DNA of 64,000 bases from Jaapia argillacea MUCL 33604. Taxonomy: Eukaryota; Basidiomycota; Agaricomycetes; Jaapiales; Jaapiaceae. A model generated the notes under the pieces. That model was not told the DNA's origin, did no database searches, and worked only from the letters and a program-made list of their open reading frames with translations. The stretch spans positions 913,613-977,612 of the forward strand of contig KL197720.1 of NCBI GenBank assembly GCA_000697665.1, written 5' to 3'. Each line of letters starts with the position of its first letter. Within the stretch, counting starts at the first letter, position 1. Of the stretch, positions 24,712 to 46,742 are shown piece by piece. The position numbers and the translations under genes were made by a program.

Positions 24712-25795
24712 CCTTTGCTGTGCAAGGAAGAATGAGATCGGCGGGAACATTGTCCACATCATAGAACTATGTGCTCACTTGTTATGAAGAAGGCGAAAAG
24801 GGGTGATGCGATGATGAGGCTCTCCACAGCTTTTAAACAAAGGCGGCTGTTTGTCCCCCCAGATAACACTGCTTCTGAGGAGTTTTGCTACATCCGCATT
24901 TCAAGGCCAGGACGTACACAAACTAGCGGCGTAACGCTAGAATGCGTCATATGACAAGCGGAGAGTTCAGATATGGTAAGTTCACGCCCCCAACTTGGCA
25001 GGGCGATGCCCTAATAGCAGCGAGGACAACATGCCGGTGGCGGGCAACAGACAAGTGGCTCAAGCTGGAAGCAAAGATCCCGAGTTCAGAGTATGTAGTT
25101 TGAATGTATCACCCAAGTATCACCACTTGCCTCTCGGCGAGAGGTTACGATAAGGACGTTCTAGGATCAAGAAGCTCCCCCATAAACCGAGAAGGAGGAT
25201 GCTCCGATTCATTGGAATGCCCGTGATCGGCCCAGGCGACGAGACGAGCCATAAGGAGGTTTGTCGACGTCTGCTGGTCCGTCCTGCACGGAGAGACTTG
25301 ATACGCAGGAATCAAGGCAGGAATGGCAATCATCATGTGCATGAGACACGACGCGATGTCCGCTGAATCTGGACCATCAGTGCTTTAGACCGGTCAACAG
25401 AATGGAGAACGAGAGATTGACCAAGCCTAAAGAGAATTTCAGGCAAGAGGAATGGTAGTGAGATGGTGGCGAGATGGTGGACGGTCCAGAGGGGGTGTTA
25501 GTGTGAGAATTTAATCGACGCACGGACCACATCATAGCGAAACCGCCAAGTCTACTATCCTAATCCGAACCATTAATGCATGATTGAAGGTGTCCATCCT
25601 GACTACACTTCTCGCTACCATCACCTGGCTACCATGGATCACATTTTTAATCTTTGCTGAATGGCCTGAAGGTGCGTCATAAAATCCTGCACAAGTGGGA
25701 CCTGACGTCACTGTCGGGGATTTCTGATGGACTGGGAGCACAAAACTGGGAGTTCGTTCATTCTCAGCTTCTCACCGCGACGCCCTTGTAGAAAC
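24712..25795. other. intergenic, divergent promoter region
   Basis: Separates the minus-strand F-box-like gene from the plus-strand carrier gene. Short frames only. Confidence 0.4.
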
Positions 25796-27426
25796 ATGTT
25801 CGACTCAAGTCTCGTAGATACGCTCTGGGGGACGTTCCAAGGTTCGCTCTCGGTTCTCATCACGACGCTGGCAGGATATCTGGCCGCTCGGTATGAATTT
25901 CTGGACAGGCCAACGGTGAAACGCGTGTCGAATATCTCCTCGTTGTTATTCTTGCCATGTCTTATCGTTGTACAAATGGGGCCATACCTTACAGCCCAGG
26001 AGCTTGGGACTGTCTGGATTATGCCTGTTTGGGGTCTGCTCAGTTCTGTCATCGCCCATCTATTGGGGTGGTTAGGCAAGGTGAGTCGCGCAACCAGGCA
26101 TATCTGAAGCACTGAAGATGGAGTATATGCTAGGCGACGCTGCGTTTGGAGTGGTGGACTGTCGTTGCTTCAGGCAGAGCAAATGCCAATGCACTACCTC
26201 TGTTACTCTTGCAAAGCTTGGAAAACTCAGGCGTGCTGAGCACTCTCAGGAAACCCGGCGAGTCAATGACCGAAACACTGGACAGAGCGAAAAGTATTGT
26301 TCTTCTCAACTCTGTAATGTATGTCATTCGACTCCCTGACTTGACGTCCTTGACGAACTGACCCCTTTGATTCGTGCACTAGCCAACAAGTTATCACTTT
26401 CAGCCTAGGCTCCTCACTCTTGCGCAGGGACCTTCAAAATGCTAAAATTGAAAACTGTGACCCCGAAGGCGATCGACTTAACCCAGGCTCCCGAGCCGCA
26501 CGCTTCCCCGCTATTCAAGACACAGAACATGTTGGCCTCCTCCGAGACTACGACCATGACGAGAGCGAGGACGATGATTTTAGGATCCCTTTCAATCAGC
26601 TTGACAATACGCCCGATCTAGACGTTTGGTCTCGATTACCTGTATCCCCGCGCGTCCGACGCGTATTCTATAAGAGCAGAAAGTTAGTCAAGAAGGGCTT
26701 TTCTTGGCTCAACCCCCCCGTTGCCGGGGCCTGCGTTGCGCTGTTCTTGGGTGTTCGTTTGATCCTCTCTAACATATTGCACTCTAATACTTTGTTCTTC
26801 AGATGATTCCCGCCCTTCACCACGCCTTCCTCTCCAAAGATGGTTTCTTCTACGATTCTCTCACTCAAGCTGTGAAGAATCTTGGTGGTCTATTGTATGT
26901 TTTGCTTGCCATTTGATTCAACTATCCCACTCACAGTGCATACACTCGTACAGCGTAAGCCTCCAAATGTTTATTCTAGGTGCTGATCTCGCCCTCGTCC
27001 CCTCCACGAAGCCAAAGATTCGAGGGACGATATCAGTTCTATCAATTCGCTATCTCCTCATGCCTCTTATCTCAATGGCTTTTGTGTACTTTACGGCTGG
27101 CAAGGGTTGGTATACAGATGATCCACTTGTATGGTATGTATCTTTAACTTTCTTTACAGCCACTTCCTTGATCTTTCCTTGATTTAGGTTTTTGTTGATC
27201 CTGGTCCCGAGTGGCCCTTCTGCGATGGTCCTTATCAACCTGGCGGAGCTCATGAACATTGATCAAGGCCCAATTGCTGGCTTTTTAGCCCTTTCGGTAC
27301 GTCACTGGAGCAATGCTACGTTCGAGCGTCCCGATTGATATGATCCCATAGTACCTGCTCTCTCCTTTTATATCTGTAGTGTGCACGATGGCGTTGAAAG
27401 TCGTCGAGGTCGTAGAGGAGCGATGA
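25796..27426 (+). CDS. auxin efflux carrier family membrane transporter
   Basis: Seven exons splice exactly in frame: 25796-26080, 26134-26318, 26383-26752, 26803-26894, 26954-27133, 27188-27296 and 27352-27426, giving 431 residues. It matches the Mem_trans (auxin efflux carrier, PF03547) plan. N-terminal spans include LLFLPCLIVVQMG and WGLLSSVIAHLLGWLG; the half-site WTVVASGRANANALPLLL is typical of the family. A central acidic loop (DYDHDESEDDDF) precedes C-terminal spans including SLQMFILGADLALVP and LVPSGPSAMVLINLAELM. Fungal members are uncharacterised transporters of the ER or plasma membrane. An upstream in-frame ATG at 25727 is possible; I prefer 25796 because the first span follows directly. 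Confidence 0.9.
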
Positions 27427-28178: not shown

Positions 28179-29845
28179 ATGTCGGCTTTCGACACTCTAA
28201 AAGATCACCCGGGACTGTTCGTCGGTAAGAGATGGGTTCTTTGAAGGTGGTTCGTACTTACTAACCGCCCTTTAAAGGTCCCTCCGTCTTTGGAATGGTT
28301 GCGCAAGCAATGCAGACCGGGGTGCTCGTGGATCAGTCAACCACGTTTTGGTCACGGGCGGCCGACGAGCGCCTTGTTGTCAAGATCATCGTCGCCTTTG
28401 TCTCCCTGGTGGCCATGTGCGTGAATAGACTAAATCGCGTGAGTGATCTTCTAACTTGCGGAAAGATTCCAGACGTCTGCATCTTTCTATTCTGTCTGGT
28501 ATACATGTGTCATCCATAAAGGCGACTGGTACGGATTGGTTTTTATTGCGCAGTCTCCAAACTAATGGCGATAGTAGGGTGCGTAATGTCTTACATTTGG
28601 TGGTGCACTTCCTCAGAGAAGTGTAGATAACTATGGTCTCGTTAACTTGGGATGAAAAAATCTCGAGCATGGTTGTGAGTGACCCAATGGCGATATCTCG
28701 TGAAGGCTCATTAATGAACTCCCCGAAGACGATGTGGATGGCCTGTCCCGTTCAGTCGTTCTGGATCTGGCGGTGTTGGGTGGTATGTCTACATCATGTG
28801 TCTCGCTGCCAAGCAGTGCATGATATTGTTTCTTAAAGCTCACTGGCAAGAGCTGGTTCACAATGGTAAGCCAAGAAGATCATGATGTAATATTATTCTT
28901 GACCTAATGTTTCCATAGGTTCCCCTAGTCTCCTTACTCCTCGGGACTGTCGCCACGAGCATCTTTATCACGGACGTTACGTTGGCGCTCAACTTTACGA
29001 GCTTCAATTCGCATCCTGGACCCTCCCCCGCATTAAGTGTTCGTCCTGAAGGGATACCTCTTCCTCAATTTGTGCTAATGCCCCTCCAGGTCTTCTCCCC
29101 TTGTCAGTCTGGAATCTTCCAGTACCCGATACCATTGAACTAAATTAGCATAGACGTTATAAACGTGGCATTTGGTGCAGGTCAGTGAATCATCACCCGT
29201 TTCGAGCGGACGCCTTACCTTCTATCAGTGCTCGATTTATCCGTGACATCTATCCGTTCGTCGCAACACCGATTAGATCCTTGAGATTGATATTCATGAG
29301 TTCCTCTCCACAAAGTTCTAGTCGTGTTACTTCGATCCCGACGGAACATTTTTACTCGAAGGTTTCGCAGGGTGAGCATGCCACTGGCAAATTCATTCCA
29401 ATCTCAACGCTGATTCTCCTCTTCTTAGACCTTCCGCCGCCTTGTTATCATTTCTTGGGAAGCGGGAGTCCCTCCTTGTGTGTGTGCCGTTGCGACACTC
29501 GCCATCTATCTGATATCCGCAAGTGTAATCGCTCCCTCCACCGCCGCTCCCATTTGATGATGCTTATGAAGAGAAACCAATCATTCTGGAACTTATTTAC
29601 GCAAGCGATTCTGGGAAAGTTCTACGTGATGTCGTTGTTCATCACACTGTGAGTCCCGTAACATGTCGCACAAGCCCTCCATCCGAGTACTCACGCAAAG
29701 TATCAGTAACGGTCGAGCGGATCTTCGAACGATGGGGTGTCCGTCACTGCCACCTCCCGCTCCTCACGACATTCCTGAAAATCAACCTGCTGTTGGTGCC
29801 CCAGCTGCTTGTGATCATCGTTTACCTGACCTCCCCTCAGGCTGA
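28179..29845 (+). CDS. DUF6534-type seven-span membrane protein, copy A
   Basis: A many-exon gene of about 310 residues. Recognisable pieces in order: MSAFDTLKDHPGLFVG, then GVLVDQSTTFWSRAADER, then FYSVWYTCVIHKGDW, then ITMVSLTWDEKISSMV, then MACPVQSFWIWRCW, then SLLLGTVATSIFI, then VLDLSVTSI, then FTRRFRRTFRRLVIISWEAG, then FWNLFTQAILGKFYVMSLFI and NGRADLR, which is the DUF6534 (PF20152) core, followed by a Pro-rich tail. Exon junctions hold phase throughout if a single base at 28578 is an exon of its own. Copy B at 30853 is its tandem paralogue. Function unknown; the plan suggests a plasma-membrane sensor or receptor, which is inference. Confidence 0.8.
28578..28578 (+). other. candidate one-nucleotide exon (copy A)
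   Basis: The G lies between two GT-AG introns (28529-28577 and 28579-28626). It completes the Trp codon of GDW and sets the next exon (ATA ACT ATG) in frame. The first intron has a CTAAT branch-like site. See findings. Confidence 0.6.
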
Positions 29846-30852
29846 CTTCCCTCACCATAGTGAGAATGGGCAAGATCCTCACATGGCGCCATTCCAACAC
29901 GAACAAGTCACCACCAATCCCAGAAACCCTCAAATACCAGGGTCTGTGACGCTACAGATATCGATAGTGGGCCGCTGACCACGATAGCTCTGTAATGCCT
30001 TCCTCGTTGATACACGATTCTCCTCCACCGTCATGTCTAATATCAACCAAACTCGCTTCACAAGCACGAGCCGCTGAAAGTTTACTCGAGCAGGGTCGAC
30101 AACAACCCGCGAGAGCGTCTGTTTCATGTTGTCGACCAACATGGGAGTAGTTTCGTTTGACTTCGTTGACCAAGCGCCCCGACATCAATCTTCGATACAC
30201 ACGTGGTGTGTATTCTCATCGGAGCCATTTATATGTCTGTGACTATCTCTCGCAGAATATCAAATAGAATCTACGCTAAGTTAAGCTACTTAGCTGATGA
30301 CCTCTGATGACCAGGTGATACCGACACGTGGCAACCATTGCCTGCGGCAAAGCAAAAGATAACGGCAGACATTTTGAAAATCGAGTCCTGCTTATCCAAG
30401 TATGTATCCCGAATTATTCGGCTTGGTCGACCATCGCATCTCGCAGTCTCCTGTCGAGGTACGTTGCTCCCCCCACACCACCTGTGACAGTTGCCTTGGC
30501 AGGCCTTGACATAGTAGAGCTATACCACTCAACCCTGTATGGCGTACCACCTGAATCACGATACCTCCCAGGCTTGGTATGAACGCCACCGCGTCACATT
30601 TCTCCACCATCACTTACTATCACGACATTCCGTAAAAATCGCATCTTAACATGAACCAGGTTGCGAGCATCGCCTCCGAGTTGGAGGGACCGGTGCTTGT
30701 AGTGACTTCACGAACCCGGCGAGTATCACACTTTCGAGGATAATGACCCTGAAACCAGGAATGTTCGCATGCGACATGCCGTGAACATCTGGGGTTGCAT
30801 TTATACGTCCAATGGACCTTCAAACAACATTGGCCATCTCATTCTTTCCAAA
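29846..30852. other. intergenic between tandem DUF6534 genes
   Basis: About 1 kb, short frames only, no recognised feature. Confidence 0.4.
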
Positions 30853-32531
30853 ATGTCGGTTTTCGACACTCTAAAGGACCATCCCGGCCTATTCATTGGC
30901 AAGAAATCTCCACATGTCATCTTCATCACCCTGATGAACGCTTCGCAGGCCCGTCTGTGTTTGGTTTGCTGGCGCAGGCCTTGCAAATGGGCGTCCTGGT
31001 GGATCAGTCGGCGGAATTTTGGTATCGGGCAGACAACGAGACCACCATAGTCAAACTCATCGTCGCTTTTGTATCAATGGTCGCCATGTGCGTATGGAGG
31101 CGAAGTGACGGAAGGGCGAGTTGTTGACCCCTCAAAAGTTTCCAGACCTCTGCGTCGTTCTATTCAGTATGGCACAGTTGTGTTATTCACAACGGGGATT
31201 GGTGCGCTTTGATACTCTCCCTCAAATTCCCCTACTAACATCGAGGTTAGGGTGAGTCCATTGGTCCGCGGATTGTTGTTTCATCCTCTGAGGTATATCA
31301 CAAGATAACGATGGTATCGATGACTTGGGTGGAAAAAATGACCAACATAATCGTAAGTGACCATTGGTACCACCGTATTTATCTGAAAAGGGAACCTTTC
31401 CAAGAACTTATGGATGGCCGGTCCCGTCCAAGCATTTTGGATCTGGCGATGCTGGATGGTATGGCTCCCCCAATCGCTCTTCATATTTTCTTGAGCTCAA
31501 CTCCTTGACTATAGCTCACCGGAAAGAGCTTGTTCACGATAGCAAGTTGCGAATCCCACCCCGCTGCCTCCGTCTCTCATCTTCAAGTCTTCATAGATTC
31601 CACTAGTTTCTCTACTCCTTGGATCAGTTGCAACGAGTGTCGTTGTTACTCATGGTGTATTCGATTTCAACTTCTCAAGTCCGGGGTCAGAAAGGGGACC
31701 TTCACCTACTCTTCCCGTAAGCACTGACGCTATTCCTCGGAACACTGAAATTCACTCCACACTAGGTGTTCTCGCCTTGTTCGTACGATAAACCGTTGGA
31801 ATCTTCGCGTCCTTAGTTTTGTCTTTCACAGTTGTTCTTAACATGGCATTTGGCGCAGGTTCGTGTTAGGCTCCATTTCGTATCAAGGGCTTACATCCCA
31901 CCAGTGCTCGACCTGTCTCTGACATCAATTCGTGCGTCTTCTTATCCTTGAAACCTTCGGCTGAGATTAAATCGCACGAAGTTTTGGTTGTTCTTCTCCG
32001 ATCACATTCATACATATTCAGTCGCAGATTTCGCAAGGTAGGCCTTTACAATGCTCTCTTTCACCATTCCAATCATTTCGTGCGGCTGGGTAGACCTTCC
32101 GTCGCCTGGTCATAATTTCCTGGGAAGCTGGGGTTCCTCCTTGTGCTTGTGGCGTTGCAACTCTCGTCACATACATCATCTGTGTCAGTCTTCCTGCTTT
32201 CTATGCCTCCTGTACCCGACCACTGATACACATGTAGAGAAACACATCGTTTTGGAATCTGTTCACGCAAGCGATTCTGGGCAAGCTCTATGTGATGTCG
32301 TTGTTCATCACTCTGTAAGTCTCAAGTATTTACACTATGTTCCACTTCGTTCACCCATATTTAAGCAATGGTCGTGCCGATCTTCGGGATGCGCGATCCA
32401 ATACTCCGTTCGCGATTCAGGCACCTGAAAGGCAAAATACTGTAGGTCTTCGAGCTAATGGTTGGGCCGAGGTTAACTCTATGCTGTCAGGTCGGTGCGG
32501 CGGGAATGATGTTCCAATCTTCAGAGAGTGA
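30853..32531 (+). CDS. DUF6534-type seven-span membrane protein, copy B
   Basis: Tandem paralogue of copy A with the same exon plan. Pieces in order: MSVFDTLKDHPGLFIG, then GVLVDQSAEFWYRADNE, then FYSVWHSCVIHNGDW, then ITMVSMTWVEKMTNII, then MAGPVQAFWIWRCWM, then SLLLGSVATSVVVTHGVFDF, then FSRRFRKTFRRLVIISWEAG, then FWNLFTQAILGKLYVMSLFI, NGRADLR and a hydrophilic tail ending PIFRE. Two introns begin with GC rather than GT (30899-30948, donor GCAAGA; 31542-31596, donor GCAAGT), where copy A has GT. It also needs a one-base exon at 31251. About 320-330 residues. Function unknown. Confidence 0.8.
31251..31251 (+). other. candidate one-nucleotide exon (copy B)
   Basis: The G lies between introns 31202-31250 (with a perfect TACTAAC branch site) and 31252-31304. 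It is at the position equivalent to 28578 in copy A. Confidence 0.6.
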
Positions 32532-33023
32532 AAGAGAGGATCCTCTTGTGCAAAGTCGTCAAGCGTGTAAATGCTGCATAGCTCAGGAGCCTAAGGTTAT
32601 CGTGGGTGAAGATCAGCATCTTGTTGCCCCTTGATAAACTTCCACAGCCGTCCCCCATGACAGTAACAAGTGATCCATATACTTACGCTAACTCGCTTTT
32701 ATAACGTAAACGGCTACCAAACCTGTCCCGCAACAACCCTAGGTCACCAGCATGCACTGCAGCGCGCCTGGCCTCCCTTCACCAAATCCCTGGCGCAAGT
32801 TGGGACCTAGCTAGCTTCCCTGAATGATCCGCACCCGCTGATGAATTGAAATGTGCATCGCGCGATGGGTTTAGCGTGGCGATTTCCTTGGTCGCGAGCC
32901 AATCTTAGGACTCTGTGCCTGCTACGGAGCGGGTCTTGGTGCTGAGGTCACCCAGTAAAATCGCAGTGTCAAGCAGTCCATTTTGTGGGACCTCATTTGC
33001 GATCTGGATGGTTCGTCAGCTCC
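32532..33023. other. intergenic, convergent 3' ends
   Basis: Lies between the ends of copy B (plus) and copy C (minus). No gene seen. Confidence 0.4.
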
Positions 33024-34547
33024 TTAAAGCGAAGTGGCAATAGAGGTCAAACGACGAACGGGCGTTCTTCTGGCACCACGATGACCGTCCAACGGGCTGT
33101 TGAAGCTGATTGACGGCTTCTGAAGATCGGCACGGGCATTTCTACAAGTTTGTCAATTCATACGCAGTACGGAATGACGGAATTCATACAGGACCCACAG
33201 TATTACCAAAAAGGAGATGGCGTAGAATTTCCCGAGGATCGCTTGGAAAAACAGATACCAGAAGCTGTTGTTTCCCTTTGGACATGTATCAGGTCAGAAC
33301 GGTTTGGAAAATGGTCGGGAAGTCTTGAAAAGTTACCTTGACCATGTAAAGCACCGCTGAGACAGTCGCACAAACACAAGGGAGGACAGCTGCCTCCCAG
33401 CTGACCATGATGAGTCGGCGAAGAAGCTAAGACAAATGGAGTTGATATTTTTGTCTTGGTAATAGAAGAACATTGGGCCAACCCGTTTGAATCGCCTCGT
33501 GAAGGCGTTGGAGCGAGACCGGAGAAGAAAGATGGAGACTACAAGACCAAGGATAATGTGGTATCGTGAAGATGTTGATTTAGAATGGAACTCACTCAGA
33601 GTTGTGATGGACAGATCGAGGACTGGAGAACGTTAGTTGAAGTCTCAGAGGTCGATTCATAGTGGTCGCTCGCCTGCGGATAGAATCAAGCCGATGTCGA
33701 CTGGTAGGTAAGCCGCTAGTAAGCAAGAGGTTATAGGTATAAAACGGGACGGAAGGACGGACATGGGGTATTCAGCTGCAAAGCATTGAGCCGTTGTTCA
33801 TGATGGACCGAAATTAAAACTTACAGGGATTCTTGTTACTGCTGGGCCATTAGATGGAAAATAGAAGGTGAACATGGCGGCCACCACGTAGATACTGATC
33901 ACAACGGTCGCCAGAAGCATTGATGATAACGGAACCTAGGGGGAGAGAATCATCAAGTGCTAGGTTTTCAGCCTCAGAAATGGACTCACCACGACTAGCC
34001 AACTTCTGTTCGTGAGCTAGATATGGAACCATGAGCAACTCATGGTAACCCGGTTAGAGATCAGTGGAGACACAATCACTTACTATCCAACACCGACGAA
34101 TCAAGAAACATTGGACGGGCGCCGCCATGGCTACTGTCTACAAAGGGCATATCTATAAACTGGCTATGCGTTTAGCCGGACGGTAGCGTACCATCACGCT
34201 CTGAAGCCTGTCCGTCCACTTCAGCTCCAGGAGTGACTCCCACTGCCCAAAGTTCAGTACAAAAAGTCTCCACCCATCCCAAAACGTAGTACCGGTCTGA
34301 AAGCTGTAAGATAGTTTCAGGTTAGCAAACTTACCAACTTATGGGAGAAGCAGACTCACAACGCAACGACGGTCACGAATGCCACCATACTTCTGATCAC
34401 CCAGCTCTCTTGGTCGGCCCGAGACCAAAAAGTCACGGAAAGGTCGACGATTATCCCGGCCTCAAAGGCATGAAACACGACGTTGGCCAGATCTGCTCCG
34501 ATGTACAAGCCCGGTCGCGCTTGCATGCAGGCGATAATGGACGACAT
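33024..34547 (-). CDS. DUF6534-type seven-span membrane protein, copy C
   Basis: Minus-strand member of the same family. Pieces in order: GLYIGADLANVVFHAFEAGI, then VDLSVTFWSRADQESW, then LFVLNFGQWESLLELKWTDR, then MAAPVQCFLIRRCWI, then SMLLATVVISIYVVAAMF, then VLDLSITTL, then FTRRFKRLLRRLIMVSWEAA, then FWYLFFQAILGKFYAISFLV and NARADLQ, ending at a TAA at 33026-33024. Unlike copies A and B, the segment between the two conserved Trp residues (W-x7-W) is uninterrupted. One intron uses a GC donor (GCGAGC at 33673). It is closer to copy D than to A/B. About 300 residues; function unknown. Confidence 0.78.
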
Positions 34548-35481
34548 GATGTCAACGGCCGCTCGTGTTCAACCTTCAGGGCCTCGGGGAAGGGGCGTGT
34601 CTTGGGGATTGACGTACTCGACGCGAGGTTATAAAAGAGAAAGAGGGCGAGCCAAAAGGCAAATGACACCGCTACTTGCATCAAGGTAGACCCGTCCCAA
34701 GGGTGGTCAGTTGCATCATTCGTTTTTGCCGATCCCTCGAAAAGGAGGTGTGCCCGAAAGCTCGTGGGAATATGGATGCACATTTGATCCCGCGAACCAT
34801 CAATTTGATCACGCCGAGGACACTTCGCACAGGAAAGTCGGCGCGTGAGGCACAATAGGGACTGTCCTGTTCGTTTTTGGACTCTTCGGTCTGCAGTTTC
34901 CGCGTGTCATAGGTTCCTTTTTCTGATCTGAATGAAAGGCGTCTGTGGCTGATGATTGAGGCGTCGCGTCGCAAGGTTTCGAGAAGGTGGACGGGACCGA
35001 GCGGTGATTTGGCTGCAGAATTCCCTCGTTACTTTGATAGTGTGTATTTAGCTCCAGTCGATTAGACGGTTTTTGGACTCACCAGGGTGCGGAATAGTTA
35101 CCGAGGGCACAACTTCCGTAGATAAGGACGCTGTGGAAATTTTGGGTGAGCGGGGTATCTTGACTGGTCATCAAGCCTCGCCGGAGGGTTTTCATTATAT
35201 GTTCCAGTGAGCACGATGTCTGAATTCTGGTGTGGGACGAGCGTCGTGAGATATTATAGCAAGAACGCCCGCGGAAAACGATAGCGGCGCCGGTGGCTAA
35301 GCATGATTGCATATTCCGGACTGCCAGTCGCAAGGAATTCGAATCTGCACAAGTGCAGCGGAGTTGAACAGAAAAGAAGCTTACACAGCCACCTGATTGA
35401 ACTCAATTCCCAAATAAGGCAAGCAAATATTCTGTTGCGTTGTGTTCAGCCACCCTGCGATTCCCATCACAAGTTTTTCCA
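34548..35481. other. intergenic, divergent promoter region
   Basis: Between copy C (minus) and RPF2 (plus). A 134-codon minus frame at 34451-34855 overlaps the start of copy C and has no family signature. Confidence 0.4.
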
Positions 35482-36712
35482 ATGCTCCGCGCAGTGCAAG
35501 TCCAAATATCTTGCACGATCCCCACTGTGAATCTGAATATTGATCTGTAGGAAACCAAAAAATGCTCGGTCAAAACGAGCTCTCGAGGCTCGCGAAGCCA
35601 AGGAAATTGAAGACACACGGACTGCAATTTTCATCAAGGGCACCCATACCGGCGAGGTGGTCAACAATGTTATGAAAGAACTTGTAAGCATGCTCATTAC
35701 GATCTCAAGCATGAGGAGATGACTGATATCTACCATCGCCCCCTTAGATGGCACTGAAACGCCCAGACGCCGTCTCGTTTTCCAAAAAGAATGCCATTCG
35801 ACCTTTCGAAGACGCCTCCTCTCTGGAGTTCTTCTCCCAGAAAAACGACGCTTCACTATTTGTGATTGGTCAGACTACGAAGAAGAGACCAGATGGACTG
35901 GTCCTAGTGAGGATGTTTGATAACAAGGTTCTTGACATGTGTGAATTGGGGGTGGACAAGTTCGTCAGTATGAACGAGTTCAAGGTTCGTTTTCTACTTC
36001 TCTCACATTTGATTGGAATGTCACTGAAAATCGATCGATTGATGGATAGACTCCAAAATCTACCCCTGGGCATAAGCCAATGCTCCATTTCGCCTCAGAC
36101 CTGTTTGACACTCACCCCCGCTTCATCCACATCAAATCCCTCCTTATCTCTTTTTTCAACGGTCAAGTCATCGATTCCATCCATCTCCAAGGAATCGAAC
36201 ACGTCATCTCCATCTCCCTATCTCCTACCCCCGCCTCCCTGGACACAACTTCCACCGACCTCCAATCACTACCAAAAGTTCATCTCCGAACCTACACCAT
36301 CAAACTCACCCCGTCTGGCACTCGCACCCCTCATGTCACACTCGTCCCAATGGGCCCGTCCCTCGATTTATCCCTCCGCCGGCATACACCACCGGAAGAG
36401 AATGCTCATTTGTACGGGTTGGCGATGAGGAAACCAAAATTGAAGAAGCAGGATTTAGACAAGGGGTTGGGTAAGAAGAAGAAGAATGTGGAAGTGGATG
36501 AGATGGGTGATGTTAGAGGAAGGATACATTTGGGCAAGCAGGACTTGAGTGGGCTAAGGGGGAAGAAGATGAAGGGGTTGAGGGAGGGAATGGAAGATGG
36601 GGATGCAGAAATGGAGAGCGATGGAGATGTGGAGATGGAGAGCGATGGAGACGACGACGACGAAGGAGAAGAAGCGGATGAAGAAGATCAACGGAAGCGA
36701 CAACGGCGGTAA
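35482..36712 (+). CDS. RPF2: Rpf2, Brix-domain 60S ribosome assembly factor
   Basis: Rpf2 works with Rrs1 to bring the 5S RNP into pre-60S particles in the nucleolus. Exons 35551-35683, 35748-35984 and 36050-36712 join in frame and align along the whole family: KPKNARSKRALEAREAK, then IRPFEDASSLEFFSQKNDAS, then KRPDGLVLVRMFDNKVLDM, then FDTHPRFIHIKSLLISFF, then PHVTLVP-MGPSLDL, then GRIHLGKQDLSGLRGKKMKG, and a long acidic/basic tail. The first exon is probably the tiny ATG at 35482 (M-L-R-A-V-Q, compare the family start M-I-R-T-V-K), but joining it at the visible GT-AG is one base out of frame, so the exact start is unresolved. Confidence 0.92.
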
Positions 36713-37047
36713 CGTTGCGATACCAGGTTCTGCACTTTATCATTGTGTTTTCTATCTGTTGTATCTAGTCTGCTACTCCCCTTCCGATGTTCGCCAATCC
36801 TTCCGCTTTTGTAATTTTTTTTGCAGATTTTTGTCAACTCTGCACCGATTGCCGAGGCAGTACATTAGAATGCTGCGAAGTGTGACGCTGGGCGGCGGTG
36901 ACGTCACAGCAATCCTCACCCCGAACTGCATTCTCTGCCTGTGGAAGGGACATGTTCCCAGCGTGCCCACCACTCCTCTTGCTCATCTCCACTTTCCTTC
37001 CCTTCCGTATTCATTTCCTTCATTCCTGAACCACAGATTTTCTTTCC
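36713..37047. other. intergenic, GLTP promoter
   Basis: Short region between RPF2 and the GLTP gene. It contains a TGACGTCA palindrome (36899-36906) and no gene. Confidence 0.5.
36899..36906 (+). promoter_or_regulatory. CRE-like palindrome TGACGTCA
   Basis: A perfect ATF/CREB consensus about 140 bases upstream of the GLTP start codon. Binding is inference from the motif. Confidence 0.45.
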
Positions 37048-37947
37048 ATGTCTCAGCCGTATTTCGAAACTGTCAAGGTATGAGTCAAAGATTAGATCAA
37101 CAGACCCTTCGTAGCGCTGACTTGGACTCTGGCATAGTCTTTCGCGGACGTTCCCATCGTTGAAGACGGAGTAGAGACGGTTGCATTCCTCGAAGCCTCA
37201 GATGGCCTCGTCTCAATGTTTGGTAAGTCACTTCCACTTCCCAACCATTCGTAGTCCGATGTTGACCCGAACACTACACAGACCTCTTCGGATCAGCGAT
37301 CTTCGGATTCGTACAAGACGATCTCCGAAGTAACATCTCCGTGAGTTCCCCTTGCTGCGTTTGGTCTGGCCAATGGATCTAATTAGAATATGATAGGGGG
37401 TCCGCGGGCGGTACACATCAACTGGAGAAAGCTCAACCACTCTTGAGAAACTCGTCATTGTCGAATCGAAAGAACAGCATCGACACGCCACTGGTTGTTT
37501 GGTTCGTTTGATGCGGTGCGTCACATACTCACCGCCCGCTCACTCCCCGAGGTGTGCTGACCGTGAGCGCCAATTACAACAGTGGCCTTGCCTTTACCTG
37601 TCAAGCCCTCCAAAATGCTCTCAATGACCGCCGTTCTGAGCTTCATGTCTGCTTCAAACGGTCATACGATGTCACACTTCGGCAACATCATTCCTTTATC
37701 ATTCGTTCCGTCGTAACCGTACGTCCCTTCACTCCGTACCACTCCAGCCATCTCATGATGTTGTTGGCTTCGTTGATAGGTGGCAATCCGTCACGTTCCA
37801 CGACGACCAGACTTCTTTAACCGTATCGCTCAGGGTGGATCCCACGAAAAACTTGATGAGGAGTTACAGAAATGGTTAGCTGGCCTTGACACCATCGTGA
37901 AGCATATGAAGAACTTCCTTGAGCAAGGAGGTCACGGAAGAGTGTGA
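37048..37947 (+). CDS. glycolipid transfer protein (GLTP, HET-C2-like)
   Basis: Six exons join in frame: 37048-37077, 37138-37222, 37282-37340, 37397-37515, 37583-37718 and 37780-37947, giving 198 residues, the usual GLTP length. The all-helical GLTP pattern is clear: SFADVPIVEDGVETVAFLEA, then GLVSMFDLFGSAIFGFVQDD, then GRYTS near the sphingolipid headgroup site, then TLEKLVIVE, then RLMRGLAFTCQAL, then HHSFIIRSVVTVAIRHVPRR and a C-terminal helix ending GGHGRV. It moves glycosphingolipids between membranes in the cytosol; in Podospora the homologue HET-C2 is also a heterokaryon incompatibility factor. The D-x3-N pair of the headgroup site is represented by the DDLRSN segment. Confidence 0.93.
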
Positions 37948-38285
37948 TCTTCTCGTCTCCGTCTGTGTCCGGGAACAGGATTCGCTCTTTGTGCTCTCGA
38001 GTTCGTCGCAGGATTCATAATTTCATTTTCGCCATCATCCGTATAAAATGGCTGCAGTACGATATGTAACACAAATATACAGGGTCTCAACCCGCGGATC
38101 TCTAATGTACATTGTAATTTATGTATGATACAGAATCGCTGAATACCATCAGCCAACGATGACCAAGAAAAACAATAAGAGACGAATAAGCGAGGAAAGC
38201 AAAAGATACAAATACAGGCCCGACGCCAGATAGTCCAAGAGACAGCAGAGAAACCCAAGAAAACAAGAAAATGCCGCCTTCTGGC
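37948..38285. other. intergenic, convergent 3' ends
   Basis: Between the GLTP gene (plus) and the C2HC finger gene (minus). No gene seen. Confidence 0.5.
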
Positions 38286-40730
38286 TTATGAAGTGATGCC
38301 TGCTCGTCCGATGACATCCCCGTTCACCGACCAAAGGCCTTCCAGGGCAGCAGTGACCTCTTCCCGATCATAGTGACTGTGTTTACGGGGAGGCATACTG
38401 ATATTGAGGAAGGAGACGAGAGTAGGAATGGTGAGCTGATCCTGGGAGTCATAGGTAGTGCTGAAAAGGTGAAAAATGGATGAATGGATGAACGAGGTCC
38501 TGCGTATAACGTGTTAAAATTGATTACTGAATGAAGAAAAAGGAATACTCGCCTTCCATTCGGAGTCTTCAGTTCGGCAAGACCTCGAGGAACTCTCGCG
38601 TGCATAGGGGAGGCATTCACACTACTGCCATGGCCATCCTCCATATCCGCATCACTCTCGTCGGAAACCACTCGCCGTCTCTTTTTCTGCCGCACCCGCT
38701 TAACGTCAACTTCTGTCCCATCCCCGTCCTCCAACTCATCCATTTCGACGTCTGCCTCCTCATCTCGACCGGATTCCCCACTCCCATCAGTACCTCGTAC
38801 ACTTCTCTCCTCCTTCCTCGGTCTGCCCCTTCCTCTCTTCTTGGCTGCCTTCTTCTCCAACATCACCTTCTTCTTCTTCTCCCTCCTCCTCTCCCTCAGA
38901 GCCTCTTCCTCACTCTCAACACCCTCCTCCGACTCTGGATCCTCCACTTCCATCTCGGGCTCAACAATTTCAGGCTCCAGGTGACCAGCAGTAGCAACAG
39001 TCCCTTTTTGTTCATTGCGTTGACGCTGCAACTCTTCTTGACGAGCCTTCATTTCTGCCATTTCTGCCGCCTTTTGCGCCCGTCGTTGTCTGAAATCTCA
39101 CAATGTCAGCCGAGCCCAAAAGAGACTTCAAAGAAGAAGCAGGAGTAGGACTCACGCTCGTCTCAAACACTTTCCCCGGTGCATTACCCAGGGATAAGCA
39201 CAGTAACTACTATCCTGCCTCAACTGTACCCATTTCTCGCATAAGGTACAATACACTCGATTTGCTTCAACCTGTCCTATCAGCGGATCCGCACGGAGGA
39301 AAGCAGCTCGCTGTTCGGCGTTTAGGCGACGAGTGGGTGTTTTCGTGTTAGAATTGACGGGGGAGGAAGGGGCCTCCGTAGCTATAGGAGTGTTGAGCGG
39401 TAGCTGGTCAAAAGAAGACGGTGGCGTGATGGGCTCTGAGATGGTTGACGAAGTCGAGGGGGGACCTTCGCCACTGAGCCGTGGATCAATGAGATCTGCA
39501 GTTGTTGAAGAGACGGGCTGAGAAAGAGCGGGTACCAGCCCATTATTCCTGGCGAACAAATATGGCCGTTAGCCAATGTGGGTGCATGAAATAAAATAAA
39601 TAAATCACCGAGCGACCGGGGAGACCGGTCCTCCAGAAGCCCTGCTGGTACTCGGCCGGTTTCTCTGCTCCTCCTCGCAAGCAGCTCGGTGTCTCAGCCA
39701 TCTCTTGACCCCGAAGTCATTATCAGCGTCTTCGGCGCCGCCTGCTTCACCTTCCTCTGTGTCTGGATTAAGAGATACCCAAACAGCACACATGTTGCAC
39801 AAAACGCGTTCTCCATCGAACTTCCTTACTTCAGGATCCCTCGAAAATATCGTGGATCGTGGATCGGCAGGTGCAATGCCGTCGGGACCGAGAGCGCTGG
39901 AGCTGGCTTTGAGACCTCTGAAAGTGCCAGAAGAGATGTCAGTAATACAGTTACTTCTAAAGGAAAGTCCAGTGCTTCACGAGGAATGGAAAGCAATCGG
40001 AAGCGAAGAAGAGATGGATGTGCCAGAAGTCGAACGAGAACCGATAATAGATTAATCAGGCTAAACTCTTACCCAAGGCCTTTTCTCGCGAGACAGCTCT
40101 TCCGATGCGCATCCCAAGGAATGGAGCAATAGGTCGAATTGGGACGGAGCCGAATCCATTTGCTACAGTTGGCACAGAGCACCCTGTAGGCCTCAAATTG
40201 GGCGACGTATGGGTCGGTTCGGAGGTAGGATATTCGTTCCTCTTCGGTGCGTTTAGCTCGGCGACGTTTGGAAGGAGCACCCGGGCTGGCCGTGACCGTC
40301 GGACTGAGTAAAGCTGATGTAGCGGTCAGGGGACTAGCCGAAGATGGGTGAGTGGGAGGGAGGAGGATCGCCGGAGTAGCACTGTCCGGAGCGGGTTGGA
40401 CAGATGCGACGCTGTTAACATATGGAGTTCAGAGGAGTTCGCGTTATCTCAAAATCCAGCAGTGGACGTACCACGACGCTCGGTGGGCATCCCAATGCTT
40501 CAAGGTGAAGCCGCCGGTCGCTTCATCTCTAAATGAGATTCCAGCACCGCAAAATTCGCAGATAACTCGGCCCGTCGCGTACTCGCCAGTTGGTGGGTCC
40601 ACAGGTGCTGATCCGTTTACTGGGTCATCAGACGGGCGGGGAGGGGTCTCAAAACCTTGCTCTCTGCCCATCAGTTAGGTCAGAAGAGACGAAAGATGTA
40701 GGAAATACGGGGGACTTACTGTCCATCCAT
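38286..40730 (-). CDS. protein with four C2HC finger-like repeats and an AT-hook
   Basis: Seven exons on the minus strand splice exactly in frame: 40730-40720, 40663-40472, 40411-40073, 39917-39609, 39548-39156, 39089-38553 and 38460-38286, giving 651 residues. Four repeats follow the plan C-x2-C ... W-x2-H-x3-C: CEFC...WDAHRASC, CANC...WDAHRKSC, CNMC...WLRHRAAC and CTLC...WVMHRGKC. They are spaced by Pro/Ser/Thr linkers. Exon 6 is Glu/Lys-rich and carries an AT-hook core (KKRGRGRPRKEE) and basic clusters. The last intron uses a GC donor (GCGAGT, 38552). The first exon is only 11 nt. A zinc-dependent nuclear DNA-binding role is inference; repeats of this kind occur in other mushroom hypothetical proteins. 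Confidence 0.8.
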
Positions 40731-42267
40731 ATTAGCAGTAGGTTTCTCGACCCTGATAGGATAGTGTGCTCCTGTGCCTCAGCGAGATGCAGGCTAAGCT
40801 CCAGGAAACGTTGAAGGGTGGAGTTTTGGGCTGGACGACGAGGTGTTGGTAGAAAAGTGGGTGGGGGAAAGGCGGAGGATGAACGAAAGCAAACGGTCGA
40901 GGATCAGCCAGCACATTTGGGTAATTGAATTATTATGACAAGATTAGCATGTTCCGGGAAATTGGGAAAACAAACACAGAACGGTTCCCACAATACCTCC
41001 GCAATGTTTCTTTTTCTGTCTCCATTCCAGGAACATGAAAAAACATACGCTCCTTTCGCGAACTTGGTGTATTTTCATCGCCATCCTCGATTCATCACCT
41101 TCATCACCTTCATCAACACAAGTATATCTGACTGCAACCCCGATTTTTTTAAACTGGAGGCTGTCCAACTGACGACTCGAAGGAGGGCAGACCTTTGTTT
41201 CCAGAAATGTTCTAGACATAAGGCACTTCCAAAGTGGCCTTGTGATTTCTGACGATCACATTCATCCTCTTATTTCATCTCATGTCAGATCAACTCTGAT
41301 ATCTGCAAATGGTTCAATTGGCTCTGCTGCATTCGATTGTGGAGCCCCACGTCGTTTGTCAGGCTCTTCTTCCAACATGATCGGGAGTATAGACCTTCCT
41401 GATCAACGAATCACGGTTTTCCACCGCCTATATTGGGGGACATACACGAGCCAGAGTGAGCCCTGCTAGAGGAAGATCCGATGAAGAAATATCTGCTCTT
41501 GGGCCTGGACAGGCGACGTAGAGTATTTCTCAAGAATGGGTTAATTTTTCCTCTCATTTACCCTGCAAGTTATGGATGATCCCTATAGCCAAAACGAGTT
41601 CCAAAGAGGGAAGACTCAACCTTCCTCCAGAGTTGAGTTGCAAATTTTCTTTGCTCGTAGTTTCGTGTCGATAGTACCGTCCCTCGCGAGACTAGTACTG
41701 ACGGGCTTTCGGCCTCAGCCAAGCCATCTCTACCATTGCCTCGCCTCTCAAGCTCTCACGACGGGTCGGGAGTGAACTCAGGCCCGAACTCAATGTCGCT
41801 TCTGAGTTCATACTCACCGTGTGCTCGTTGAAACCGTGCTACACCACCATACCGGGGGGATGTTTTCCAGAGGTCGATTCAGAGGCACGACAACGGTCTT
41901 GCACTCGAGGTCAGCTTGTCACTGATTGAGGTCGTTTTGACGTCCCTAGCGCAAATCAATTGAGCATCGGCTGATCTCAAATGTCCGTGCGACGTTTGAC
42001 ACTCAGACCCCAATGAGACATTTCTTGCTACCTCTGGTAGACAGTTAATTCAACCTTGGCGAAACAACACATAGTGGTAACACAGAGCTTTACGAATATA
42101 CAGTATTTTATTCAATTATCATTCCACTGCTCATACATATCTCGAGTTGGTCCGGACAGAGATGGAGAAACAGTCATGACATTGTAATGGTATACGGACA
42201 TTGGGCCTTAATGGTGTGGTATCTCAATAACCCAGCTCCGAGCAAGCCCTCAACCTGGAGAATGGAG
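40731..42267. other. intergenic up to the assembly gap
   Basis: The promoter of the finger gene, then about 1.3 kb with only short frames. Nothing recognised. Confidence 0.4.
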
Positions 42268-43264
42268 NNNNNNNNNNNNNNNNNNNNNNNNNNNNNNNNN
42301 NNNNNNNNNNNNNNNNNNNNNNNNNNNNNNNNNNNNNNNNNNNNNNNNNNNNNNNNNNNNNNNNNNNNNNNNNNNNNNNNNNNNNNNNNNNNNNNNNNNN
42401 NNNNNNNNNNNNNNNNNNNNNNNNNNNNNNNNNNNNNNNNNNNNNNNNNNNNNNNNNNNNNNNNNNNNNNNNNNNNNNNNNNNNNNNNNNNNNNNNNNNN
42501 NNNNNNNNNNNNNNNNNNNNNNNNNNNNNNNNNNNNNNNNNNNNNNNNNNNNNNNNNNNNNNNNNNNNNNNNNNNNNNNNNNNNNNNNNNNNNNNNNNNN
42601 NNNNNNNNNNNNNNNNNNNNNNNNNNNNNNNNNNNNNNNNNNNNNNNNNNNNNNNNNNNNNNNNNNNNNNNNNNNNNNNNNNNNNNNNNNNNNNNNNNNN
42701 NNNNNNNNNNNNNNNNNNNNNNNNNNNNNNNNNNNNNNNNNNNNNNNNNNNNNNNNNNNNNNNNNNNNNNNNNNNNNNNNNNNNNNNNNNNNNNNNNNNN
42801 NNNNNNNNNNNNNNNNNNNNNNNNNNNNNNNNNNNNNNNNNNNNNNNNNNNNNNNNNNNNNNNNNNNNNNNNNNNNNNNNNNNNNNNNNNNNNNNNNNNN
42901 NNNNNNNNNNNNNNNNNNNNNNNNNNNNNNNNNNNNNNNNNNNNNNNNNNNNNNNNNNNNNNNNNNNNNNNNNNNNNNNNNNNNNNNNNNNNNNNNNNNN
43001 NNNNNNNNNNNNNNNNNNNNNNNNNNNNNNNNNNNNNNNNNNNNNNNNNNNNNNNNNNNNNNNNNNNNNNNNNNNNNNNNNNNNNNNNNNNNNNNNNNNN
43101 NNNNNNNNNNNNNNNNNNNNNNNNNNNNNNNNNNNNNNNNNNNNNNNNNNNNNNNNNNNNNNNNNNNNNNNNNNNNNNNNNNNNNNNNNNNNNNNNNNNN
43201 NNNNNNNNNNNNNNNNNNNNNNNNNNNNNNNNNNNNNNNNNNNNNNNNNNNNNNNNNNNNNNNN
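42268..43264. other. assembly gap (997 N)
   Basis: A run of N. Open frames reported across it are artefacts. Confidence 0.99.
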
Positions 43265-45234
43265 CCTCTGGGCAGGCTCAGGGGAGCCAACGTTGAAATG
43301 CACAACATTCTGGTGTCACTAAGGTGGTGTCCCAGAGCCCTGCGTGATGTTGTGGAGGCAATGCCAAGGTGACATTTCCGGAACGGCAGACGGACGTTTC
43401 CGCAAACGATAGGTTGAGACAGCTCTGAGAACGACAACCTGACCTCCATCCTGGGCACGAAAAAATCTATCATTTGATCACATAACAATAACAACTTTTT
43501 GAGATCCTGTTGACAGTTTACAGGTTTGGTGGTGTACTCTTCGAGTCCGGAGTATTAGACAGATTGCGCGATTACTGCTCCTGTAATCCCAGTCTCTCGA
43601 CACTGTTCTTAGTACTGCCAAGGTCCCGTAATTGATACAATCAGTTTACAGTACGCTATACAAGCGAGTAGCCTGAGGGTATGTGTCAGCGTTTCTATGG
43701 ATCCTGCGTGCGGTAACGTTCCTGAATGTTTGGCTGCACATCGGAAGAGTTCCACCAACCTGAAACCTGCCGGGGTTACTTCCCCTGTTCACGATGAAGT
43801 ATGCGGATGATCCTTACAGCGAGCAATCAGTTTGAGGGTTCCCGTACTCAGTCTAAACGTTCACGAGACACGGCAATGAAGCTGCAACCGAGGTGGGCGA
43901 GCCAGCCTCAAGATCTCCTCCATATGCTCAAAACCACCCATGTTCATTTGGTGGTTCGTTCGGGTTGCACCAACACGGACCTGCGGCAACGTAGCCCAGT
44001 TCCAGTGGGCGACCCACATCTACGGCCACCTGTCTCATATCGAGAGCGGTAGTAGTGTCTATCCGCCGGATCCTAGGTAAAAAAGGATGGGTAAACGATG
44101 GTATGGAACACAGCTTCGAAAATAGCGATAGGGCTGAGGAGGTGCTGGAGAGGAGTTGACGAGAGTATCACCCACGCATGTGTGGCTGCCATTTGCAGAC
44201 TACGTATATTTCCCTTGCTAGTGGTCACCGATGAACCTCGACCTTCAGTTGAAGCAATGGCCAAGGTTAGGGTCTTGGGCACATCACAGACAGAGGGAAC
44301 GAACCGGTGCCGAGGGAGGGGAAGACAAGATGGTCCGCTTGCAATCAGCGGAATAATCGAAGCTCACTGAAATGGTCCCAGAATGTGATTTCAGGAGAAA
44401 TCATGCGACAGAACCAGCGGAACTCGCCGCAACAAAGGCCTTCTAATCTCATCTCGCGACAAATTATAGCACGGCCGTGGTCACCCGCCCCAGAAGAAAG
44501 CACCTCACCTCTGCGAACGTTTGGGACCTCAGGACATAATCAAGTCATGGCAAAATCTAGATGAACATCGATATGGGGTCTGCGAATTGCTGCATTGAGG
44601 ACATCAGCTGTTACGGTTTCAGGACCCCTTTCGAATCTCACCTCGACCGTGAACGACTCACTAGGAAGTGTGGGATGATGGAGACACATCCGTTGATCGC
44701 ATTTTACGAGGGCAGGCATACCAGGTGACCAGGAAGGAGGCAGTCGGACACAGGGTGGTCCCTCCAAACCCCATGCTGACGAAAAGGTGATCATGGAAGC
44801 GTATCCCGGACAAGCCCACAGTAGAGCCACCTTCAGTCCCTGATCAAAGGGGATCCAATCCCCTTCGAGGCTTGCGAAGTCGGATACAATGCTTAAAGCG
44901 CCGACATATCACCGAACGGCGAAGTCCCAAGAACGTTATGCAGGAAAAGCCAGGACAGATGAGAATAGAGAAAAGCGATGGCATATGCAAAGGGTTCAAA
45001 TTCCTCAAAACAGATGGAGTAAAGTAAACTCGCCGACATAAGACAAGAGAGCATTGACAGGCCTCGTCAAAGCAGGGCTGCATAGACAAAGACGGCAAGC
45101 TATGGGGTGGTCGCAGTTTTCTTTGCTTCTTCTCGGAAAGCCTCGCGCTCCGTGGCAGATTCTGAGTACCCAAACGATCGGAATACTGGCCCATCGCTTT
45201 CAGTGTCGCCGACGACCTACCAGCCAAGATCGAG
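43265..45234. other. intergenic, no gene recognised
   Basis: A minus-strand frame at 44540-44830 (segments CVRLPPSWSPGMPALVKCDQ and FTVEVRFERGPETVTADVL) looks somewhat protein-like but has no family match and no splice partners I could find. The rest is short frames. Confidence 0.3.
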
Positions 45235-46742
45235 TCAACCCACGAGCCAGCAGATAAATTGATGAAGCGAACGCACAGGAACCTGAACTTCGATACGAAG
45301 AGACGGGTTGACAGCCTGTTTATCCCAGTCGGTGCCGTCCTGAAGGGACGCACGGGCATTCCTAAAAAAATCATTAGAGTGGTGGTTGATTGAGGTAACA
45401 TCGATAAACCCACAAGATGATCAGAAAAGACATGGCATAAAGTTTGCCGAGAATAGCTTGGAAGAACAAGAACCAATAGTTGCCTCCTTCCTGTTAGAAC
45501 ATCCAATTTTGGAACAGATTTTATCACATATCTCCAGCCTACTTACGTTAACCATGTAGATTATAGCGGCGAGGAGCGCGCAGAGTGAAGGTGGGACTGC
45601 AGCCTCCCACGACATGGAGATGAGTCGACGCAGAATCTAGATTATTTCGTTTGGTTAGCCATGACGGATACGAGGTGTAACGGCACTCACCCGCCGAAAA
45701 TGACGAGTATAAGCGCTTCCTCGAGCACGGAGGAGCGAGGTTAATACTTTGGGAGGATAAAATTAGGTCAATAGTATGGTTATCATGGTTGGAGATACAC
45801 ACTAATCGTGGTGACAGATATATCAAGCACTAGGATGTATTAAAATAAGTGTGCGGTGCCGTGAGGATGCAAACTGACCAGCAGTTAAAATTAAGTTCAA
45901 GTCAACTGAACAATTAGGTGAGCCACTAAAAAGTCATGGTGCAAGGAATCATACTTACATGGGGTATTGAGCTAGTGTCGCTGGGTCAGAAGAAAAAGCA
46001 TCCACTGCGAAAAAATGATATTACTGACCGGGATGAGATAAATCGGCGGTCCCATAGGTGGGATGACCATAGAGAACATGGCCACCGCAACATAAATGCT
46101 GAGAGCGATATTGGCAAGGAGCAAAGCTACCAATGGCACCTGATACACGAGCAAGATTGTCAAATGTACGATCAAGGGAGTATGTAAGAGGAAACACCCA
46201 CGAGGATGAGCCAACTCTTATCGGTGAGCTTTGCGTGACAGATATTAAAATAGCAACGCCTCAAACTCGGAAAGGACACTTACGATCCAACAACGCCGGA
46301 TCAGAAAGCATTGAATCGGGGAGGCTAATGCCGCTGTCTTTTGGAGTATGTCATGGGAGGTTCGCGGAGAAGATAGGAACAAGCGGGCGAACCACAATAC
46401 TCTGTATCCGATCCTGCCAATGCAGCTCAATAATTACTGGCCAAACGCCGAAATTCTGAACAAAAATATGCCAGTGTGCGTAGAACACCGTCGCAGTTTG
46501 ATATCTTAGGTGGTGGGTGTGAGCTTGGTCGTTGAGGGGGAATCGAATGCTTACAAGGCAACGATGCTAACGAAGCCAACTGTGTATTTCACTTGGGGAC
46601 TCTCGTGTCGGGATCGATTCCAAAACGAAATCGACATATCGACGAGAAGGCCGGTTTGAAGCGATTGAACAATGGCATCGGCAACCAGAGGGCCCAGATA
46701 CTTGCTTGGGTGCTGCTGCAACTGCGTGATGATTGACGCCAT
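45235..46742 (-). CDS. DUF6534-type seven-span membrane protein, copy D
   Basis: The fourth family member. From the ATG at 46742: HPSKYLGPLVADAIVQSLQT, then LLVDMSISFWNRSRHE, then FVQNFGVWPVIIELHWQDR, then ASPIQCFLIRRCWI, then DKSWLILVPLVALLLANIAL, then VLDISVTTIS, then YTRHFRRILRRLISMSWEAA, then YWFLFFQAILGKLYAMSFLI and NARASLQDGTDW, ending after HQFICWLVG at 45235. All junctions I traced hold phase with GT-AG introns. The W-x7-W segment is contiguous, as in copy C. It is separated from copies A-C by about 10 kb that includes RPF2, GLTP and the finger gene. Function unknown. Confidence 0.78.

Follow-up and report, generated by a model that had tools for sequence, protein, structure and literature searches.

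The locus considered here raises the question of how a reading frame is restored when one base of a conserved codon stands by itself between two introns. The window, a 64,000-nucleotide stretch of Jaapia argillacea DNA, contains two related forward-strand genes for membrane proteins, A and B, which match the Pfam family PF20152 (DUF6534) with 45.5 and 41.5 bits, respectively, against a curated cut-off of 28.2. In gene A, which starts with the ATG of exon 1 (28179..28224), exon 3 (28466..28528, 63 nt) ends in GGC GAC TG and is followed by a phase-2 intron of 49 nt (28529..28577, GTACGG...CTAAT...TAG), a lone G at 28578, a phase-0 intron of 48 nt (28579..28626, GTGCGT...TAG) and the 48-nt exon 5 (28627..28674, ITMVSLTWDEKISSMV). 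The same succession is found in gene B (exon 1 with ATG start, 30853..30898), where exon 3 (31139..31201, 63 nt) ends in GGG GAT TG and precedes a phase-2 intron of 49 nt (31202..31250, GTGCGC...TACTAAC...TAG), a lone G at 31251, a phase-0 intron of 53 nt (31252..31304, GTGAGT...AAG) and exon 5 (31305..31352, 48 nt, ITMVSMTWVEKMTNII). Introns 3 and 4 of these models are referred to below as intron 1 and intron 2 of the pair. In both genes the G completes the TGG codon of the motif GDW as its third base. The earlier note had read it as a one-base exon, and the coordinates and intron lengths it gave (49/48 nt in A, 49/53 nt in B) proved exact when the sequence was read again. Spliced alignment, the arithmetic of 63, 1 and 48 nt, purifying selection downstream of the site and a normal branch-point spacing all speak for this reading, and we predict that A and B very probably each carry a genuine one-base exon.

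The model of gene A comprises 15 exons and ends at a stop codon in its hand-fitted last exon (29707..29845); that of gene B has the same 15 exons, with a provisional 3′ end. A custom spliced protein-to-DNA aligner with hand-set consensus splice scores, uninformed of the one-base exon, traced gene A as far as the beginning of exon 8; in gene B its calls cover the stretch from the second intron to that same point. With paralogue D as guide, exons 9-15 in A and B, as well as the first intron of B (30899-30948), were fitted by hand, and the equal lengths of exons 1-14 in A and B were favoured by this hand-fitting. Both hand-fitted models contain a 13-nt exon (29090-29102 in A, 31766-31778 in B) as well as several 27-nt exons. 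GC-AG introns with GCAAG donors account for 3 of the 28 introns in the A and B models (30899-30948 and 31542-31596 in B, 29519-29571 in A), each having GT in the other gene; of the 75 introns modelled in 16 other genes of the family, three were of this kind.

The precursor of both genes has the order AG-G-GT, with a single base between the AG and the GT of two introns of viable length and both splice-site pairs intact. If the G is skipped, GD is immediately followed by a stop codon (TGA) in both A and B. Retention of intron 1, of intron 2 or of both led to a stop in all six cases, as the earlier note had stated for reading through the first acceptor. Its further claim, that one large intron would run into a stop, was borne out for the donors at 28529 and 31202, which produce TGA at once, but it had overlooked two frame-keeping paths in gene A, one with a four-base exon TAGG and one from a donor at 28539. 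The G is thus required for both the frame and the conserved Trp, apart from these two other paths in A, which keep the frame without the residue or the spacing of the family. With the G included, the W-x7-W spacing of A and B equals that of copies C (W-ESLLELK-W) and D (W-PVIIELH-W), again in agreement with what had been noted.

When copy C was used as query, the aligner placed a phase-2 intron, a lone G and a phase-0 intron in both A and B. The copy C query of these early alignments was approximate, deviating by a few residues from the C model; model-derived proteins were used in a run with 16 paralogue queries. In that run the one-base exon lay on the best path with 16 of 16 queries in A and 16 of 16 in B, and when intron 1 was disallowed the score fell by 12.4-20.0 units in A and by 22.5-36.5 units in B. 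The 16 queries are related genes and therefore do not represent independent trials. A version of the test with seven queries likewise chose the one-base exon. The aligner called no internal exon below 27 nt in the 16 other genes, which were modelled over approximately their first 150 residues.

The splice paths open to the two genes were then listed, admitting those that are free of stops, keep the frame, contain no more than two GT/GC-AG introns, each 30 nt or longer, and retain the conserved head and tail. This left 22 paths in A and 32 in B. In each gene the complete head, GDW and the W-x7-W spacing survive together on the proposed path alone; a further path per gene kept W-x7-W at the loss of ten residues, and it too runs via the lone G. 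The other paths of B rely on GC donors lacking AAGT or on GTTATT, GTTGTG, GTGTTA or GTCCGC as donor, with one exception, in which the one-base exon is retained and intron 2 ends at 31292.

In gene A the two remaining candidates deserve separate consideration. Intron 1 of A ends in a tandem acceptor, TAG-TAG (28572..28577), and splicing at its first AG, which ends at 28574, would give a micro-exon of 4 nt (TAGG) in frame with the same two donors and intron 2, yielding GD-C-R-ITMV, B still having its one-base exon. This path was the runner-up in A for 7 of the 16 queries, but there the alignment margin against it was 13.0-20.0; it would also lose the Trp present in 16 of 16 other members and add one residue, and the corresponding first AG in B (31245) opens no in-frame path. 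Moreover, its acceptor and the branch A are 9 nt apart, less than the minimum of 11 nt in the 13 other introns with CTAAY, a lower limit that is not firm because two CTGAT introns have branch-to-AG distances of 5 and 8 nt. We regard the four-base exon as improbable. For the other nine queries the runner-up was a single 88-nt intron from the very poor in-frame donor GTTTTT (28539..28544) to 28626, which leaves the frame intact with the three extra residues YGL after the Trp (GDWYGL-ITMV) and would have to be combined with a different irregular path in B. The donor scores below 71 of 72 family donors, the intron exceeds the family maximum of 68 nt, and B lacks a matching donor, its other paths having poor GT or GC donors or retaining the one-base exon. 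Such an intron is, in our judgement, most unlikely.

The signals of the intron pair were compared with those of 75 introns from the 16 other genes. Family introns measure 45-68 nt, a range into which the 48-53 nt of the A and B introns fall and from which the composite introns of 98 nt (A) and 103 nt (B) are excluded. With GT-AG ends, a branch-point-like site and typical length, all four have the features of U2-type introns. Among 72 donors, those of intron 1 ranked low to middling (percentile 12.5 in A, 25 in B) and those of intron 2 average (42nd in A, 51st in B), on a matrix that takes in exon positions biased by shared intron positions. On an ad hoc score, the branch-point-like sites of intron 1 were strong, with CTAAT at 28562 in A at the 80th percentile and TACTAAC at 31233 in B at the 100th; the latter is the perfect branch site already pointed out in the earlier note. 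Those of intron 2 were middling (53rd percentile in A, 27th in B). The branch A of intron 1 lies 12 nt from the acceptor in both genes; a strong branch-point motif was present in 39 introns, and in the 13 others with CTAAY the distance is 11-37 nt. In both genes the 12-nt interval of intron 1 also holds an extra AG, at 9 nt in A and 7 nt in B, and AGs at 7 and 9 nt are skipped by other family introns. The acceptor context of intron 1 is poor, scoring below all 75 family acceptors in A and at percentile 1.3 in B; for intron 2 it is likewise poor in A (1.3) and lies at 42.7 in B. Folding of the RNA across the intron pair revealed nothing special (z-scores of −0.86 in A and +0.81 in B).

The weak acceptor signals of intron 1 would be compatible with A and B being decaying pseudogenes, the frame problem then being a lesion. 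The comparison between the two genes points the other way. At silent-site saturation (pS 0.70, dS about 2.1), dN/dS was 0.075 over 269 codons and 0.093 downstream of the site, and for the 80 codons immediately past it (exons 5 to 8) it was 0.114; as judged from these values, the frame downstream of the one-base exon is under purifying selection. No other lesion was found in either gene model, and the same arrangement is present in two old paralogues. Decay is accordingly a very unlikely account of the site.

The intron cores of A and B showed no similarity significantly above that of shuffled sequences. Given this dissimilarity and the silent saturation, AG-G-GT has been kept while the remaining intron sequence was largely replaced. 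For each composite intron, 20,000 dinucleotide-shuffled versions served to gauge how readily the motif arises by chance. AG-G-GT occurred anywhere in 14% (A) and 16% (B) of the shuffles, and together with two introns of at least 40 nt in 2.9% (A) and 4.0% (B). Barring GAG acceptors and requiring RNG donors as well lowered these shares to 0.33% (A) and 0.21% (B).

Four protein searches, which returned the same set, identified at least 18 close paralogues in the genome, including A, B, C and D; since such searches score only the best candidates, 18 is a lower bound. Copies C (L020, 33198..34547) and D (L019, 45413..46742) lie on the reverse strand of the window, their extents being those of the tblastn matches. 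The four DUF6534-like paralogues of the window are clustered in two orientations at 28179-46742. Amid this cluster lie a gene with a Brix domain (tested on the piece 36050-36709) and one for a glycolipid-transfer protein (tested on the piece 37512-37817), and a Mem_trans transporter gene lies upstream of it (tested on the piece 25706-26104). Two PF20152 loci, L007 and L008, coincide in part with the genes of L023 and L022, and a remote, weak match at C1:1307798 stands outside the 18 modelled genes. Six PF20152 loci were also aligned: L001 and L003 gave low-scoring partial models with no intron at the codon, and for L002, L004, L005 and L006 the aligner gave no usable model. No relatives outside the source genome were found in general-genome and viral contig collections, which included no fungal collection.

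The intron structure at the TGG codon divides the 18 paralogues into three groups. Eleven have a phase-0 intron of 49-67 nt directly after the codon, five (L011, L013, L017, C and D) have no intron there, and only A and B have an intron pair. The Trp is present in 16 of 16 other paralogues, none of which has the one-base exon of A and B. In the five genes without the intron, the segment is a single, uninterrupted exon of 112 nt. The intron preceding the segment was placed by the aligner in phase 2. In all 11 intron-bearing paralogues the phase-0 intron is preceded by an exon of 64 nt; the exon after it measures 48 nt in nine, 45 nt in L025 and 52 nt in L029. The segment in A and B consists of 63 + 1 + 48 nt, and 63 + 1 + 48 = 64 + 48 = 112. 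Because these lengths fit exactly, intron 2 of A and B can be assigned to the old family position and intron 1 identified as the extra one, sitting one base upstream within the same TGG codon. At the phase-0 site, a GC donor was seen in L015, L018 and L029.

In the unrooted tree, A and B form a pair with a support of 97/94, which L011 joins next with 98/98. As L011 is sister to A and B yet has no intron at this site, either loss of the shared intron in L011 or multiple gain must be assumed. The five paralogues without the phase-0 intron are not one clade, in keeping with repeated loss or gain.

From this distribution a course of events can be proposed. Most members of the family have a phase-0 intron immediately behind the Trp codon TGG. 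In the ancestor of A and B, a second, ordinary U2-type intron would have come to lie within this codon (TG|G), so that the G became an exon of its own. The spliceosome, used to introns of about 50 nt in the DUF6534 family, would remove the two one after the other, and joining of TG and G would restore GDW and the frame. We infer sequential removal because two spliceosomes should not fit on a single exon base at once; either order would leave the splice sites of the remaining intron whole and give the same mRNA. The earlier note had offered the sequential removal of nested introns as an alternative to a one-base exon. Its sequential element is likely, but it does not describe a separate structure, the introns being placed side by side.

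A related question is whether the pair should be regarded as one complex intron, a stwintron or recursive site, instead of two introns and an exon. Adjacent introns with almost no exon between them do resemble fungal stwintrons, as far as these are described in the accessible parts of PMC5639578 and PMC12403724. A [D1,2] stwintron, however, requires a T after the internal AG, where A and B have a G; a zero-length recursive site requires AG|GT, where they have AG-G-GT; and both splice-site pairs are whole in the precursor. We consider a complex intron extremely unlikely and retain the reading of two introns flanking a one-base exon.

As to the source of the extra intron, it is possible, though we hold it to be rather unlikely, that the one-base exon arose from the one old intron by a two-step ratchet. 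The intron and the base preceding it would first have been tandemly duplicated, the composite still being removable as a whole and the gene still working. Loss of a base at the first donor would then have left the one-base exon as the only means of restoring the frame. No sign of a duplication of intron 2 into intron 1 was seen, the similarity between the two introns of A, and between those of B, not being above that of shuffles; the comparison is uninformative because silent saturation would have erased any likeness. An origin from an introner or repeat was also considered and rejected, as the DNA of each pair matches only itself in the genome (one match each for A and B).

One-base exons are already known in a few plant and fungal cases, to which those predicted in A and B add. 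That they are very rare in eukaryotes, as the earlier note held, agrees with the literature found, which does contain precedents. The accessible parts of the papers cited here describe them in APC11 of Arabidopsis (PMC4674806), in plant APC11 and VPS55 (PMC8831610), in CYP621A of Fusarium with the order AG-G-GT (PMC12940212) and in snoRNA host transcripts of Candida (PMC5033589). The Fusarium case is a fungal protein-coding gene with AG-G-GT, as in A and B; the composite intron, which measures 139 nt in F. graminearum, has roughly double the usual length, the exon is needed for a conserved motif, and an intronless relative aided its recognition. In CYP621A the G stands in the middle of a Gly codon, between a phase-1 and a phase-2 intron, whereas in A and B it is the third base of Trp between phases 2 and 0. 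The Fusarium exon is conserved in 20 orthologues and supported by 18 reads, and A and B are a paralogue pair read from genome sequence; unlike in CYP621A, as far as that report goes, one of the flanking introns of A and B is at a position common to 11 paralogues (PMC12940212).

The one-base exons of plant APC11 and VPS55 resemble those of A and B in being essential for the frame and in having some uninterrupted copies, and they have been kept across land plants (PMC4674806, PMC8831610, from the parts accessible). In Arabidopsis APC11, in contrast to A and B, the exon consists of a single A amid 422 nt of intron, and it was tested by mutated reporter constructs, RT-PCR and RNA-seq, whereas A and B are read from the genome (PMC4674806). 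The Candida snoRNA hosts likewise have fungal one-base exons between two introns and successive splicing, but they are non-coding, with no frame at stake (PMC5033589). Stwintrons share with A and B the proximity of two U2 introns and their stepwise removal (PMC5639578, PMC6616335, PMC7138796, PMC12403724); they differ, in the descriptions available, in that a splice motif of one intron is interrupted by the other, while in A and B both motifs are whole and one base is left (PMC5639578, PMC6616335, PMC7138796). No basidiomycete one-base exon was found in the literature searched, which leaves out most subscription papers.

On the very short list of one-base exons found, A and B would be the second fungal protein-coding case. 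If the ratchet were true, they would be the first basidiomycete case, with the older intron identified. Gene predictors that are unable to place a one-base exon would presumably break both genes. They belong to a family whose proteins, according to the accessible part of PMC12842992, have been put forward as receptor candidates by machine learning, all 767 consensus candidates being in Agaricomycotina, which points to a probable basidiomycete host. The one-base exon of A and B would have survived a gene duplication and the saturation of silent sites. Since the same genome holds 11 paralogues with one flanking intron and five with none, the origin of such an exon can be studied directly in this family.
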